Below are positions 20,639 through 26,293 of a DNA stretch of 43,666 bases, piece by piece. The translations under genes and the position numbers were made by a program. The stretch is from Candidatus Binatia bacterium (lineage in GTDB: Bacteria > Desulfobacterota > Binatia > UBA12015). How positions within the stretch are numbered: position 1 is the first letter of the stretch; the number at the start of each line of letters is the position of its first letter. Location of the stretch: the NCBI GenBank assembly GCA_029248525.1, contig JAQWJE010000023.1, positions 1-43,666 on the forward strand, given 5' to 3'. Under the pieces are notes generated by a model. It did no database searches. It worked only from the letters and a program-made list of their open reading frames with translations, and was not told the origin of the DNA.

Positions 20639-21757
20639 TCAGTCCTCGAACTCGTAGATCATCGAGGCCCCCGGAAAGGCGTCGGCAATACCCGGCCCCA
20701 GACCAACGGGTTGCCGGTCGAGGCCAAAGGCATCGCGCATATGCGCGACAGTAAAATGACCCGTGATCCTCCAGAATTCTTCGGGGTCCAGATTTTCGGG
20801 CAAGCAACCATCGATGGCCAGAGACAAGAGGTTCTCGGGGATGGGGAATCCGGCCGCGACCAGGTCTTCGAGAAAATTATTGCCATTCCAGAGGATATCG
20901 CATTGATCGGTGAAACTATTATGGCCCGCGTTATCGACCGAGACAAAGCGCTTCGGGCCGGCAAGTTCCTCATAGGACTCCTCAAGCCTCGCGGCTCCTC
21001 GGTCCTCGGCGCCCACCAAAAGCAGGACGGGCTTGTCGGTAATCAAACCGCGCGCACTGCCAGTCGCAAACCCGATCATTGCTCGAACCTCCGGACGTTC
21101 GGGCAAGGCAAAAGCCGCGCGGCCTCCCGCCGAGTGGCCCGAGGTCACAACGAGTGTCGTATCGACGCCACCGAAAAGCGGTGATCCCGCATCAGCATCC
21201 GCATCCCCCAAGGCACCGATTGTTGCCAGAACGACATCTTCGGCGGTTCGGTCCGGTACCTCCCCGCGCAACCCTACCTGCTGAAGGAGTCCCCACTCCG
21301 TGTGGTCGATCGAGGCGACGACGATTCCGTGCGAAGCCACCTCCGTGAGGAGGGCCGAGTACGCGTAGCGAAAGCCGCCGGCACCGTGGCTGAAGGTGAG
21401 AATCGGGAACGGCCCATCCGCACTCGCGGCGAGATCGCGATAGGCATCGACCGAGATTTCGATATTGAGTTCCGGCGGAAGAATATCGACGATCGCCTGC
21501 GGCAGGACTTCAAAGGACACGTAACTTGTCGTGTCGTGACCTGCGGTGGCGTCCGGATCAACCGGATACCAGACCTCCACCTCGCGGTCACCGAGCCCCA
21601 GCGTCGTAATACCGACCGCATAAGAACCCTTCCCTGCATATTTTGGCGTACTGCTTTGGTCGGCGCTGCTACCGCTGCAACTGGCGAGCGCCAGCGCCGC
21701 CGTGAAACAGACCGATGCCATCAGACAGGTTTTCCCCAAGGTTCCGGTTCGCGTCAT
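20639..21757 (-). CDS. Lipoprotein alpha/beta hydrolase, PAF-acetylhydrolase-like
   Basis: Exported hydrolase of 372 aa. The N-terminus is a lipoprotein signal with lipobox LASC (Cys27). The fold shows ILTFSHGAGGFR (oxyanion region, about 119-130), the nucleophile elbow SGHSAGG with S209, and a late His in DNAGHNSFTDQ. The overall layout resembles platelet-activating factor acetylhydrolase and chlorophyllase-like esterases. The ATG at 21757 is chosen because TTGGAGAACGAG just before it supplies a GGAG ribosome site; a TTG start at 21769 would bury that site. The residues after the lipid Cys (SGSSAD) repeat those of the GDPD lipoprotein at 272. It follows the copper-enzyme gene by 59 bp on the same strand. 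Confidence 0.88.
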   Translation of the reverse strand: MTRTGTLGKTCLMASVCFTAALALASCSGSSADQSSTPKYAGKGSYAVGITTLGLGDREVEVWYPVDPDATAGHDTTSYVSFEVLPQAIVDILPPELNIEISVDAYRDLAASADGPFPILTFSHGAGGFRYAYSALLTEVASHGIVVASIDHTEWGLLQQVGLRGEVPDRTAEDVVLATIGALGDADADAGSPLFGGVDTTLVVTSGHSAGGRAAFALPERPEVRAMIGFATGSARGLITDKPVLLLVGAEDRGAARLEESYEELAGPKRFVSVDNAGHNSFTDQCDILWNGNNFLEDLVAAGFPIPENLLSLAIDGCLPENLDPEEFWRITGHFTVAHMRDAFGLDRQPVGLGPGIADAFPGASMIYEFED

Positions 21758-21816
21758 CTCGTTCTCCAATCCAACAGAGGTCCGTGGGCGGAGGATTCGC
21801 CCGCGCAGGCTGTTCG

Positions 21817-23604
21817 CTACTGATTTTCGTACACGGCCAAGCCACCGATCAGCACAAACATCTCATCATCGGTGGTGACACCGGGCGTAATGGCACAAGC
21901 ATCACAAAACCCGTCCCCGGCCCCCGGTTCCGAATCACAGGTCGCATCATCCCCGACGCCACCGCAGGGTTCCGCGATACGCCCTTCGGCGCAATGTGTT
22001 GGCACGCAGGTTGTTCCGGCAGGCCTCTCGGATCGCCGTGTGACTGTATAGGGATCCGGACTACCGTCCCGCGCGACGCCATTATTATAGATCGCGCAGA
22101 ACTCCAGAGTCCGCTCGGCCGAATCTTCAGAATCGAAGACCCAGGGCTCGTCGAAGGTGAGATAGAACGGATCATCATAGAACGGGCTTTCGTAGAACCT
22201 CTCGCCGCTCGGATCGTTCACCCAGAAAAGCTCGCCGCGCTTGTGGGTATGCGAAGAGAGCATCAACAGTCCCGCCCCCTGCTCGAACGTATGCTCGCGA
22301 CATACGGTCTGACGCTCGAAGGCAGGCGTGCCAGCCCCGGCACCGATGTAACGGAAATCGTGCCACTGCCACATCGTGACCTCGCGCTCCTCGGCGAAAA
22401 GAAAGTTTCGCCACGCCCTGTGCATCGTATCCTTCTCGGTCAGGTTGTATGCGTGCGAGTTCCAATAGACCAGGCCGCGCAGGGGCACCTTGATATAGAA
22501 CCCGGGAATCGAGGTCTCCGGAATCAGGAAGGTTTCGTTGAAATCCGTGCCGCCATTGGGGCGTCCCTCGTCCGGTCCGAAGCCGAAGCAGGCAACATTA
22601 TCGCCGATACGACTACGGCAGATACTTTCGCCACAGCTATTCGTATCGAGAGGGTCGCAAGGTGCTCCCGCTTCTGTCCCGCTCGCGCATACCCAATCGC
22701 CATACGACGGATCGTCGATCAGGGAGATCGGCGTTGTCGGCTTCATCACGATCAGGTGGTGGGTATTCGCATCCTCACGACTCACCTCCTTGCGAGCGAA
22801 GAAATAATCGCCGCTCTCATCCAGATATCGGTCCGGCACCTGTCCGCTGAAGTCGTAGTAGGAAGCATAGCAAATTTCGATCTCCGACCCCGCCGCGATC
22901 CGATGCGCCGGCATGACCAACTGCACACCATCTCCCTCGGCCGGCGGCTGCAGGGCTATTGCCTGGACAGGATCGGCCGCGGGCAGACAGACTCCCAACT
23001 TCTCGGCGATGGTGTCGGAATTCCCCGACTCATTATCGCCAACGACTCCGGCGGCAGCCGCGCCCTTCTCGATCCAGACACGCACGACATCGAGCTGATC
23101 GTGCGTGAGCTGATTACCGCCAAACGGCATCGGGCTCCCGGCAACGGTCTGGCCTGCCATCAGGTCCGGCGCGGTGGCCGCCGCCAACTTCAAATAAAGA
23201 AGGCTCTTCAACGGCTCCCGTGGCAACACCAGCGCCATCGTCGAACCGAAAGATTCTCGGTCCACGAGATTTCCATGACTCAGCCCCTCCCGCAGATCGA
23301 GACCACCAATGGCGGCGTCGCCATGACAGGCAGAGTTCGTGCAATCCATGCCGTCCCAAAGCACCGTCTGGATGGCATCGTAGGTATTCTCGAACTCCAC
23401 CTCGCAGTCCGGCTCCGCCGGGGGAGCTGGATCAGGCGTTGGTTCCGGCACCGGCAAAGGGGTCGGGTCCGCGGGATCCACTGGGGGCCCCGCGATCGGT
23501 TCCGGCGAGTTCGGCCCCGGTGCACTCGAACTACCGCAACCCGAAACCACCAACGCAGCAACCACAAATAACGCCCGACAAGAATTTCCCTTCGACAGCC
23601 TCAC
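21817..23604 (-). CDS. Lipoprotein with cytochrome c-like segment and PHM-type copper monooxygenase core
   Basis: Secreted lipoprotein of 595 aa. Signal peptide with lipobox VSGC (Cys23), a Pro-rich linker (25-66), then a cytochrome-c-like segment: C88-x4-C93-H94, with SPMPFGG at 157-163 as possible axial Met159. The rest resembles copper type II ascorbate-dependent monooxygenases. Ligands of both copper sites can be assigned: H282-H283 (NTHHLIV) and H384 (WNSHAYN) for CuH, and H452-x-H454 (SSHTHKRG) and M582 (DDEMFVLIG) for CuM. Cys-rich inserts separate these motifs. The likely chemistry is C-H hydroxylation of an unknown substrate at the cell surface, with the haem as electron entry. The start GTG 23604 is chosen for the G-rich site GGGGGGGTAGGC and a compact signal peptide; ATG 23652 is the alternative. 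Confidence 0.85.
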   Translation of the reverse strand: MRLSKGNSCRALFVVAALVVSGCGSSSAPGPNSPEPIAGPPVDPADPTPLPVPEPTPDPAPPAEPDCEVEFENTYDAIQTVLWDGMDCTNSACHGDAAIGGLDLREGLSHGNLVDRESFGSTMALVLPREPLKSLLYLKLAAATAPDLMAGQTVAGSPMPFGGNQLTHDQLDVVRVWIEKGAAAAGVVGDNESGNSDTIAEKLGVCLPAADPVQAIALQPPAEGDGVQLVMPAHRIAAGSEIEICYASYYDFSGQVPDRYLDESGDYFFARKEVSREDANTHHLIVMKPTTPISLIDDPSYGDWVCASGTEAGAPCDPLDTNSCGESICRSRIGDNVACFGFGPDEGRPNGGTDFNETFLIPETSIPGFYIKVPLRGLVYWNSHAYNLTEKDTMHRAWRNFLFAEEREVTMWQWHDFRYIGAGAGTPAFERQTVCREHTFEQGAGLLMLSSHTHKRGELFWVNDPSGERFYESPFYDDPFYLTFDEPWVFDSEDSAERTLEFCAIYNNGVARDGSPDPYTVTRRSERPAGTTCVPTHCAEGRIAEPCGGVGDDATCDSEPGAGDGFCDACAITPGVTTDDEMFVLIGGLAVYENQ

Positions 23605-23890
23605 GCCTACCCCCCCCAAACGTAACCTCAAAATCTCTCCCGGAGGTATCATAGGCCGGCTAAGGTTGCGAAGCTTATTCCGGCAAGAGTGATCCCGAGC
23701 ACCCGCCCTGACACCGCAGCGCACAGGTTGTCGCGCAGCTGAACGAGACCGAACGACGGGGCTCAACGCAGAGTTTTTTGGCGGAAAATTTGTTTTGTGC
23801 CCGAATGTGAGTCGACAAGCCGAAATGAACGAGATATCCCAAGCACTCACGACGATTCCCGAACGATGATTGCGCGAGAATAGAGTTCCC
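23605..23890. promoter_or_regulatory. Divergent intergenic region
   Basis: This 286-bp gap separates two divergent membrane or exported proteins and must hold both promoters. If the ATG at 23652 is used for the lipoprotein, the gap shortens to 238 bp. A T-rich patch GTTTTTTGGCGGAAAATTTG lies near 23775. No convincing -35/-10 pair, palindrome or small gene was recognised. Confidence 0.4.
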
Positions 23891-26293
23891 ATGGCAACCA
23901 AACGCAGTCTCTACTTCGAAATCTTCCTGATCGCACTGGCCGTCATCGTTCTGGAGGTCAGCTACACGCGGGTCTTCTCCTACAAACTGGTTTATTACTT
24001 CACCTATCTGGTCATCGGCGTCTCCCTGCTGGGGCTCGGGGCCGGTGGCGTTTTCGTGACGCTGTTCGAGAGCCTGCGACAGATCCCGCCCCGGCGCCTG
24101 ATTCTCGTGTGCTCGCTCGTCGCCTCGCTCAGCGTGACCATCGGGTATTTCATCACCGCGCTGCTGCCGATGAACCTCTTCCAGATGGTGATCCATCTCG
24201 GCCAGGGCCGGTGGGATACCGTCTTTCTGGAAGTAGTGAAACTCGGCGCTCTCCTGATCACGCTCTTCGTGCCTTTTGCTGCCGCCGGCATCGCTCTTGC
24301 GATTATCTTCGCGACACGAACCGAAAACATCAGCCGCCTCTATTTTGCCGACCTCAGCGGTGCGGCTCTGGGCTGCACCATGATCATTCCCATCATGGTC
24401 TACCTCTCGCCTCCCGGTGGTGTCCTTCTGGCAGGATTCTTTTTTGCGATCTCGGGCTGGAATCTGGCTCGCGACGAGGGCGGTCGGTGGCCGGCCGGCG
24501 TCATCATCAGTGCGGTTCTTTCGCTGATCTTCGTCATCTCCCCCGCGCTCCTGCCCGACCCCGTCAAGGATAATATCAAGGGCGAGGGAGAGTCCAAGGC
24601 GATCTTCACGCGGTGGAGTCCGGTGTTCCGGGTGGATGTTGTGCCAATTCCCCTGCCGGATGCAGAGCCTTCGAACTTTCTGGTCCATGACGGAACTCTG
24701 GGTTCCGTTCTCTACTCCTGGGACGGCGAGATGGACTCTCTGGCGCGGTACGACACGATGGATCGGCAATACCCGTTCCGCTTGCTCGGCCCTGGCGCCA
24801 ACGTCGCCATCGTCGGTTCGGCCGGCGGCAACGAAATCATGGCCTCATTGCATTTCGAGGCCAATCACGTCACCGGCATCGAACTGAATCCGGTGACGGT
24901 CGACCTGCTCCACGAGGACTTTGCCGACTTCACCGGCAGATTGGCAGAGCACCCGAAAGTCCGGATCGTCAATGCCGAGGGGCGAGCCTTCCTGGAGGGC
25001 TCCGGCGACAACTTCGACCTGATCTGGCTGGTGGCCCCCGACAGCTATGCGGCCATGAACGCAGCTTCGTCGGGCGCTTTCGTACTCTCGGAAAGCTATC
25101 TCTACACGCGCGAGATGATCCAGACCTCGCTCACACACCTCACCCCGGATGGTATCCTCTGCGCCCAATTCGGCGAGATCGGCTTCGGCGAGAAGCCCAA
25201 TCGCACGCTTCGCTACCTCGCGACCGCCCGGGAAGCTTTCCGGAAGCTGGGCATCGAGGATTTCCCGGCCCATGTAATGGTTACGGCCGCACCCGGATTT
25301 GCCGATATGGCAACCGTCACCATCCTGCTGAAGAAGTCGCCCTTTACCGAAAAAGAAATCGCAACCCTGAACACCACAGCCGCGAGCCTCGAGAAAAACG
25401 AGGTGATTTATACGCCGACCGGGATGGCCCAGGATCACCCGGCCTTCACCGTCATCACGGCCAACGGCGATGAACGCGAAGCCTTCTATGATCGCTACCC
25501 CTATCAGATCGGTCCGATCACGGATGATTCACCCTTTTTCTGGCATTTCGTTTCCTTCCCCGATGCGTTGACGGGCCGGACACAATCCAGCGAACTGAAC
25601 ATCGAAGAAGGAGTGGGCGAAAAAGCACAGATCGCACTCCTGTTCGCAGCCATTCTGCTCGCGGCTGTCTTCCTTCTGGCCCCTCTGGTTTTCCTGCGCG
25701 ACGTCTGGCGCAAGATCGAATGGAAGGCGTCGGCAGGAACCTACTTCATGTGTCTCGGCCTCGGCTTCATGTTCATCGAAGTTTGTCTGATTCAGCAACT
25801 CACGCTCTTCCTCGGCTACCCGACGTACTCGCTTACGGTCACTCTCTTCTCCCTGCTGCTTTCCACAGGGGTCGGCAGCCTGCTCAGCGAACGCTTCCGA
25901 AACAAGCGGAATCAGGCCTTCGGGATTCTGGCGGTCAGCCTGATCGTGCTGGTGACGTTCTACCAGATGGCTCTCACGCCGATCATCGAGGCCGCCGTGG
26001 CATCACCTCTGGGCCTCCGGGTCCTGATTTCCGTTGCCCTGCTGGCACCCTTGGGGCTCTGCCTCGGAATGTTCATGCCGCTGGGTCTCGCAACGGTTTC
26101 CCGCCTGGGCGCACACGGTGAGGAATACGTCGCATGGTGCTGGGCGGTGAACGGGTTTTTCTCCGTGGTCGCATCGGTCCTCGCGACGATCCTGTCGATG
26201 ACGATCGGTTTTCAAGCCGTGATGCTGGTGGGCCTCGTCATCTATCTCTTGGGCATCGGCGTCTTCTCCCGAGTGCCACAGCCCGGCGCCTGA
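23891..26293 (+). CDS. Multi-pass membrane protein with central spermidine synthase-like domain
   Basis: Protein of 800 aa. About six or seven hydrophobic helices occupy residues 1-220, a soluble domain spans about 235-560, and further helices fill 570-795. The soluble domain has a Rossmann-like SAM-binding pattern: NVAIVGSAGGNEIMASLHF, VTGIELNP, VRIVNAEGRAFL and FDLIWL. This is the polyamine aminopropyltransferase layout, but the substrate-side residues look different and the GSAGG loop is unusual. Such fused proteins are common in environmental bacteria and their reaction is not established. ATG 23891 is chosen over a TTG at 23870 because MATKRSLYFEIFLIAL is a natural start of helix 1. Confidence 0.85.
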   Translation: MATKRSLYFEIFLIALAVIVLEVSYTRVFSYKLVYYFTYLVIGVSLLGLGAGGVFVTLFESLRQIPPRRLILVCSLVASLSVTIGYFITALLPMNLFQMVIHLGQGRWDTVFLEVVKLGALLITLFVPFAAAGIALAIIFATRTENISRLYFADLSGAALGCTMIIPIMVYLSPPGGVLLAGFFFAISGWNLARDEGGRWPAGVIISAVLSLIFVISPALLPDPVKDNIKGEGESKAIFTRWSPVFRVDVVPIPLPDAEPSNFLVHDGTLGSVLYSWDGEMDSLARYDTMDRQYPFRLLGPGANVAIVGSAGGNEIMASLHFEANHVTGIELNPVTVDLLHEDFADFTGRLAEHPKVRIVNAEGRAFLEGSGDNFDLIWLVAPDSYAAMNAASSGAFVLSESYLYTREMIQTSLTHLTPDGILCAQFGEIGFGEKPNRTLRYLATAREAFRKLGIEDFPAHVMVTAAPGFADMATVTILLKKSPFTEKEIATLNTTAASLEKNEVIYTPTGMAQDHPAFTVITANGDEREAFYDRYPYQIGPITDDSPFFWHFVSFPDALTGRTQSSELNIEEGVGEKAQIALLFAAILLAAVFLLAPLVFLRDVWRKIEWKASAGTYFMCLGLGFMFIEVCLIQQLTLFLGYPTYSLTVTLFSLLLSTGVGSLLSERFRNKRNQAFGILAVSLIVLVTFYQMALTPIIEAAVASPLGLRVLISVALLAPLGLCLGMFMPLGLATVSRLGAHGEEYVAWCWAVNGFFSVVASVLATILSMTIGFQAVMLVGLVIYLLGIGVFSRVPQPGA

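Follow-up and report, generated by a model that had tools for sequence, protein, structure and literature searches.

The closest described systems are peptidylglycine alpha-hydroxylating monooxygenase (PHM; Pfam PF01082/PF03712) and dopamine beta-hydroxylase (DBH), known as copper monooxygenases of animals and other eukaryotes that are fed by ascorbate. DBH has an extra N-terminal domain, a DOMON domain, which is described as sharing its fold with the cytochrome domain of cellobiose dehydrogenase while showing no haem ligands (PMC4846438). The bacterial proteins analysed here also have an additional domain at this end of the chain, but it is a probable c-type haem domain in which haem-ligand residues are present. 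Copper nitrite reductases are unrelated to the PHM/DBH type in copper fold and in reaction. Those with a linked redox partner likewise tether that partner to a copper enzyme (PMC9358711). No paper on a bacterial haem-PHM fusion was found among the literature matches listed, which come from open-licence papers. The strings 'bacteri' and 'prokaryot' are absent from the text of a review of PAM (PMC6529398), and 'peptidylglycine' and 'lipoprotein' are absent from the text of the Binatota genome paper, which credits this uncultured group with alkane degradation and methylotrophy (PMC8262859).

The window, by which we mean the whole stretch of 43,666 nucleotides that was analysed, comes from a Candidatus Binatia bacterium (GCA_029248525.1, contig JAQWJE010000023.1). 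It encodes a protein with a predicted PHM fold, made of two beta-sandwich domains, and with all six PHM copper ligands, the same in order and type; its identity to PHM in structural alignments is 9-12%. Unlike PHM, the window protein has two Cys-rich inserts, a putative N-terminal haem domain and a lipid anchor, and lacks the PHM substrate residues. What is new relative to PHM and DBH is the fusion to a likely c-type haem domain together with the two Cys-rich inserts, in a multi-copy family. We suggest that the window protein is probably a secreted, lipid-anchored copper monooxygenase of the PHM/DBH type, in which a c-type haem in the same chain serves as electron donor.

The gene and its features

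The gene lies on the minus strand at 21817-23604, with a GTG start at 23604 and a stop at 21817-21819, and its translation is 595 aa long. A 618-aa open reading frame overlaps it on the plus strand (21715-23571); this was rejected as the true gene and is regarded as a shadow, because conservation at eight places in the genome of origin follows the minus-strand frame. The residue numbers given in the first-pass annotation (C88, C93, H94, M159, H282, H283, H384, H452, H454 and M582) are all correct in the translation. The features, with the evidence for each, are as follows.

21817-23604, minus strand: whole gene, 595 aa (translation; eight homologous places in the same genome)
23536-23604, minus strand: predicted signal peptide and lipobox VSGC, with Cys23 (codon 23536-23538) as the candidate lipidated residue (sequence and script)
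23407-23535, minus strand: Pro-rich low-complexity linker, residues 24-66 (sequence)
22981-23406, minus strand: c-type cytochrome-like domain, residues about 67-208 (alignment A2, model, weak PDB matches, PSCyt1 in relatives)
23323-23343, minus strand: haem attachment motif C88-TNSA-C93-H94, CX4CH (both Cys and the His in 36/36; CXXCH in three paralogues)
23125-23130, minus strand: Met159-Pro160, likely distal haem ligand (invariant, 36/36)
21820-22965, minus strand: PHM/DBH-type dicopper core, residues 214-595, model residues 151-532 (Foldseek, VIA, hhalign)
22756-22761, minus strand: His282-His283, assigned CuH ligands, PHM HH (invariant; pairs with HH of A3 and thence with HH of PHM)
22588-22689, minus strand: Cys-rich insert 1 (residues 306-339), flanked by CuH histidines (conserved Cys; mostly a gap in A3)
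22453-22455, minus strand: His384, assigned third CuH ligand, WNSH (invariant; pairs with QTH of A3 and thence with QVH of PHM)
22243-22251, minus strand: His452-Thr-His454, assigned CuM ligands, HxH (invariant; pairs with HYH of A3 and thence with HTH of PHM)
21895-22008, minus strand: Cys-rich insert 2 (residues 533-570), ahead of the CuM Met (Cys in 34 or 35 of 36)
21859-21861, minus strand: Met582, assigned CuM ligand, DEM motif (35/35; VIA end points)

A possible alternative start lies at 23602-23645 on the minus strand, where an in-frame TTG preceded by GGGAG stands nine codons upstream of the GTG and could also begin the gene.

The protein had been annotated in the first pass as a surface lipoprotein. 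The lipobox VSGC with Cys23 is indeed present and indicates lipid anchoring, but it says nothing about surface location. A script flagged a lipobox in 20 of 36 family members, of which manual reading retained 18 (L036 and L038 look false); judging by these motifs, lipid anchoring is not common to the whole family. The NCBIfam and PDB sequence matches of the window protein are chance-like and fall inside residues 8-74, within the signal peptide and linker.

A copper core of the PHM/DBH type

The fold was predicted with AlphaFold2 from a 35-row alignment of the family (A1), which excludes L037 with its incomplete C-terminus, and the resulting model has a pLDDT of 87.5 and a pTM of 0.83. PHM and DBH account for all of its best 31 Foldseek matches in the PDB (E 5e-8 for the top one), and viral jelly-roll capsid proteins follow from E 9e-5; these Foldseek superpositions on PHM/DBH are loose, with an rmsd of 6.5-11.8 A and TM scores of 0.27-0.34 by query and 0.30-0.54 by target. 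VIA-align, run without the low-confidence stretch of the model, superposed it on PHM at Z 15.4 (3.4 A, 254 aligned residues) and on DBH, which thus has the same fold, at Z 14.9 (3.6 A, 258 aligned residues), with the next unrelated entry at Z 7.8. The comparison with PHM that the first-pass annotation had proposed therefore gives a matching predicted fold.

Homology to the PHM/DBH superfamily is also well supported at the level of sequence, where it is established through a chain of profiles leading from A1 to A3 and from A3 to rat PHM. A3 comprises 14 proteins, drawn from 20 loci of this class, that score above the Pfam cut-off (L053-L057, L059-L063 and L065-L067); a fragment (L064), a divergent protein (L068), a protein of reversed domain order that falls under the cut-off (L069) and three loci of the A1 family (L070-L072) were left out. 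The A1 and A3 profiles align in hhalign with E 8e-39 as a whole and, for the copper part without the haem domain, with 99.1% and E 2e-18; in this copper alignment H282, H283, H384, H452 and H454 each stand opposite a His. A3 in turn matches rat PHM with E 3e-12 and DBH with E 2.7e-8, and the HH, H, HxH and Met/His positions of A3 and rat PHM are in register. In addition, 5 of the 35 members match the Pfam family Cu2_monoox_C with an E-value of 1 or less, the lowest being 0.0064.

Met582 requires a separate argument. It is not paired with the corresponding A3 residue in the global hhalign alignment because insert 2 lies between, and its assignment is based on the DEM motif and on the VIA end points, in which PHM 327 equals model residue 532 and DBH 497 equals model residue 529. 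If the last strand is ungapped, Met582 (model residue 519) falls on PHM 314 and DBH 487, which we take to be the CuM methionines. Together, the predicted fold, the profile chain and the invariance of the residues bear out the two-copper core with six ligands described in the first pass, and the assignment of three His to CuH and of His-His-Met to CuM is well supported by model and alignment. Given the fold match and the profile alignment, a structure in which the assigned copper histidines are far apart is unlikely.

The putative haem domain

The first-pass annotation had also recognised a haem motif with Met159 as its likely axial ligand, and several observations agree with this. The CXnCH motif and the Met are invariant in the family, one clade has CXXCH, and 4 of the 35 members match the Pfam family PSCyt1 with an E-value of 1 or less, reaching 8e-6 in the best case. 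At the same threshold CTI matches 10 of 35 (best 0.017), and Cytochrome_CBB3 and Cytochrom_C match one of 35 each. The CX4CH spacing is counted as a haem motif in a published source (PMC5566968).

Modelled alone, the haem domain has a pLDDT of 90.8. The best Foldseek match is hydrazine synthase at E 0.32, and two of the five weak matches are to an ABC transporter; VIA aligned the domain with FoxE and hydrazine synthase at a Z of only 6.7, and a profile search returned FoxE at E 0.017. FoxE and hydrazine synthase carry c-type haem. The window domain thus resembles the c haem domains of the PSCyt1, FoxE and hydrazine synthase types in weak sequence or fold matches and in having similar CXnCH and MP motifs, but the CX4CH spacing differs and the matches are below the level of proof.

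Three paralogues from the genome of origin (L004-L006), which form one clade with an SH-aLRT of 100, have CVGCH (CXXCH) where other members have CX4CH. Since A3 also has CX4CH, the haem loop was probably shortened once, staying a haem motif throughout. That the motif survived the loss of two residues, giving CXXCH, speaks for genuine haem attachment. The genome of origin encodes three proteins that score over the cut-off for Cytochrom_C_asm.

A large multi-copy family

The genome of origin (4.27 Mb) has eight places homologous to the gene with E below 1e-60, one of which (L008) is cut by the start of a contig. A search of other genomes for the same fusion, as the first-pass annotation had advised, found relatives in 41 of 145 genomes of the class, the genome of origin included (threshold E <= 1e-10), and one genome gave as many as 12 matches; at most nine candidates were scored per genome, and the best place in each genome was taken as the locus. 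When at most three candidates were scored per genome across a sample of the phylum, 7 of 395 genomes matched, all of them within the genome of origin or its class. Named relatives are a Candidatus Binatia bacterium and Deltaproteobacteria bacterium UBA12015, the latter 99% identical and probably of the same species as the source genome. The window protein had no match on plasmids and none was found on viral contigs; two weak plasmid matches are to residues 61-159 of L060.

A Pfam scan of the window protein alone found no family up to E 1, and a search of the genome of origin with PF03712 and PF01082 found nothing at E <= 10. The family is large, multi-copy and unnamed, and Pfam's two models do not find its members in the genome of origin.

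Conservation was assessed in 36 of 40 loci, the window protein included, leaving out the fragments L008 and L010 and the near-identical L009 and L012. L008 is absent from every alignment, and A2 additionally excludes L014, a near copy of L013. C88, C93, H94, M159, H282, H283, H384, H452 and H454 are each present in all 36 aligned members, and M582 is present in all 35 rows that reach its position. Insert 1 has Cys306, 316, 324, 329 and 339 in all 36 members, while Cys533, 538, 547, 556, 567 and 570 of insert 2 are each found in 34 or 35 of the 36.

A tree was built from 47 copper-domain sequences, 35 of the A1 type and 12 from loci of the Pfam-positive set (L053, L054, L062, L064, L068 and L070-L072 being absent). 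In this tree L013-L016, which come from other genera of the family, form a group with the window gene at an SH-aLRT of 99, and the six other own-genome paralogues are in four other groups (L002; L003; L004-L006; L007). The own-genome paralogues thus look like old, retained copies rather than recent duplicates.

Two members, L007 and L026, have long N-terminal extensions before the haem domain that end in a CGNGxxExxEDCDDGN-like repeat, for which Pfam DUF4215 scores just under its cut-off. Another locus, L118 (3840-11004, plus strand), has three family-like genes in tandem; the third of them, truncated where the stretch ends, carries CX5CH and DEMC but lacks a Cys-rich insert of normal length.

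Fusion of haem and copper domains, and proposed function

In the model that we prefer, a copper monooxygenase with its own haem donor, the lipobox protein would be exported and lipidated at Cys23, and the cytochrome c maturation machinery would attach haem at C88/C93, as the motif, its conservation and the presence of maturation genes suggest. H94 and M159 would ligate the haem iron. The haem could then draw electrons from an envelope electron-transfer chain and, as the fusion suggests, pass them to CuH, which is the job of ascorbate in animals. By homology, CuM would activate O2 and hydroxylate a C-H bond of a substrate located beyond the inner membrane. That the window protein carries haem, transfers electrons and acts as a monooxygenase is what we infer, and a haem acting in place of ascorbate would fit the repeated fusion of the two domains.

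The haem domain is N-terminal to the copper core in all 36 aligned family members and in 8 of 14 A3 proteins, which thus combine a CX4CH haem domain with a PHM core as the window family does. Both profiles also match three other loci (L099, L104 and L105), in which the haem motif is present. In L069 (451-2943, plus strand), the PHM-like core comes first and the CX4CH haem domain is C-terminal, far from the core. The occurrence of the same pair in two domain orders suggests that haem domain and copper core are functionally coupled.

No haem motif is seen in the remaining six of the 14 A3 proteins, of which L053 and L054 are cut by contig ends. We fetched 31 regions around PHM-like loci and could call the PHM-like gene in 29 (the exceptions being L094 and L102). 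A separate CXnCH gene was found within two called genes at 1 of 10 haem-less loci (L091), several of which are cut by contig ends, and at 2 of 19 haem-bearing loci (L110 and L116), so that no pattern emerges. The six haem-less proteins, with neighbouring genes rarely supplying a haem, indicate on motif evidence that, within the class, this copper core does not strictly require haem.

These same observations lend some weight to an alternative, which we consider unlikely, in which an active copper core uses a diffusible reductant and the haem domain serves for docking, for sensing or as a structural element rather than as the donor. The core seems to work without haem in the six relatives, and the haem domain can stand before or after the core or, in L069, at a distance from it. 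However, both the haem motif and the Met are retained in every one of the 36 aligned members, and the CXXCH shortening speaks for real haem attachment, which favours the haem-donor model.

A3 proteins differ from the window family in two respects. They show no counterpart of the Cys-rich inserts in the alignment, and the CuM Met is replaced by His in 13 of 14 (NEHC or QEHC versus DEMC), such that their CuM would be a three-histidine site. A divergent Pfam-positive relative, L068 (1489-3165, minus strand), lacks the two adjacent histidines (HH), carries EEQC where the Met would stand, and is perhaps a degenerate copy.

The two inserts, which do not align with the PHM-like A3 proteins, could instead point toward an envelope redox or copper-handling protein (for storage, sensing or as an oxidase) that has kept the PHM sites and does not monooxygenate. 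The absence of a widely conserved neighbour and of the PHM substrate residues would be in keeping with such a role. Nevertheless, we regard it as quite improbable, since both copper sites, including the His-His-Met of CuM, are invariant across a diverse family, as in enzymes, and since eight copies in one genome, seven of them placed in five groups of the tree, fit a set of enzymes with different substrates. A true peptidylglycine hydroxylase making alpha-amidated peptides can be dismissed as scarcely credible: the nearest solved structures are PHM, but DBH fits the model about as well (Z 14.9 vs 15.4), and the positions of R240, N316 and Y318, which we take to be the peptide-binding residues of PHM, are S450, V584 and I586 in the window protein, with R, N or Y in 0 of 35 rows.

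Since none of the 35 rows has these substrate residues, peptide amidation is unlikely, and the substrate would not be a glycine-extended peptide of the PHM kind. Our likeliest guess is that different small organic compounds serve as substrates, one per paralogue. As a tentative extension, which we would sooner doubt than assert, the class may hold a whole set of haem-wired PHM-type monooxygenases that use respiratory electrons instead of ascorbate to act on diverse environmental compounds at the cell envelope. If so, this would be an unrecognised oxygenase repertoire with two versions of CuM (His-His-Met and three-His), present in eight copies here and in 41 of 145 genomes. It would give the uncultured Binatota, as they are portrayed in their genome paper, an oxygenase set that is missed by Pfam's two models in this genome. 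If a bacterial enzyme of this type brings its own haem, the entry of electrons into CuH would also become measurable in a single chain.

Neighbouring genes

Gene neighbourhoods were compared in 12 stretches and the window (blastp E <= 1e-15, with a crude gene caller). Leaving the family genes aside, each gene family occurs in at most 2 of these 13 stretches, and no more widely conserved neighbour hints at a donor or a substrate. Of the pairs of shared genes, six are between orthologous loci of close genomes (L047/L048 and L049/L050) and four between stretches of the genome of origin (L042-L045).

On the minus strand, 47 bases downstream of the window gene, a gene at 20639-21769 encodes a PAF-AH/chlorophyllase-like hydrolase with a signal-like start. 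In this comparison it had no match beside the orthologues L047-L050, and it is a possible partner of the window protein. At L091, a plus-strand gene with two CXXCH motifs (808-1737) directly follows the haem-less PHM-like gene. Positions 23870-26293 on the plus strand encode a divergent protein of 807 aa, in which a spermine-synthase-type domain and several hydrophobic segments can be recognised.
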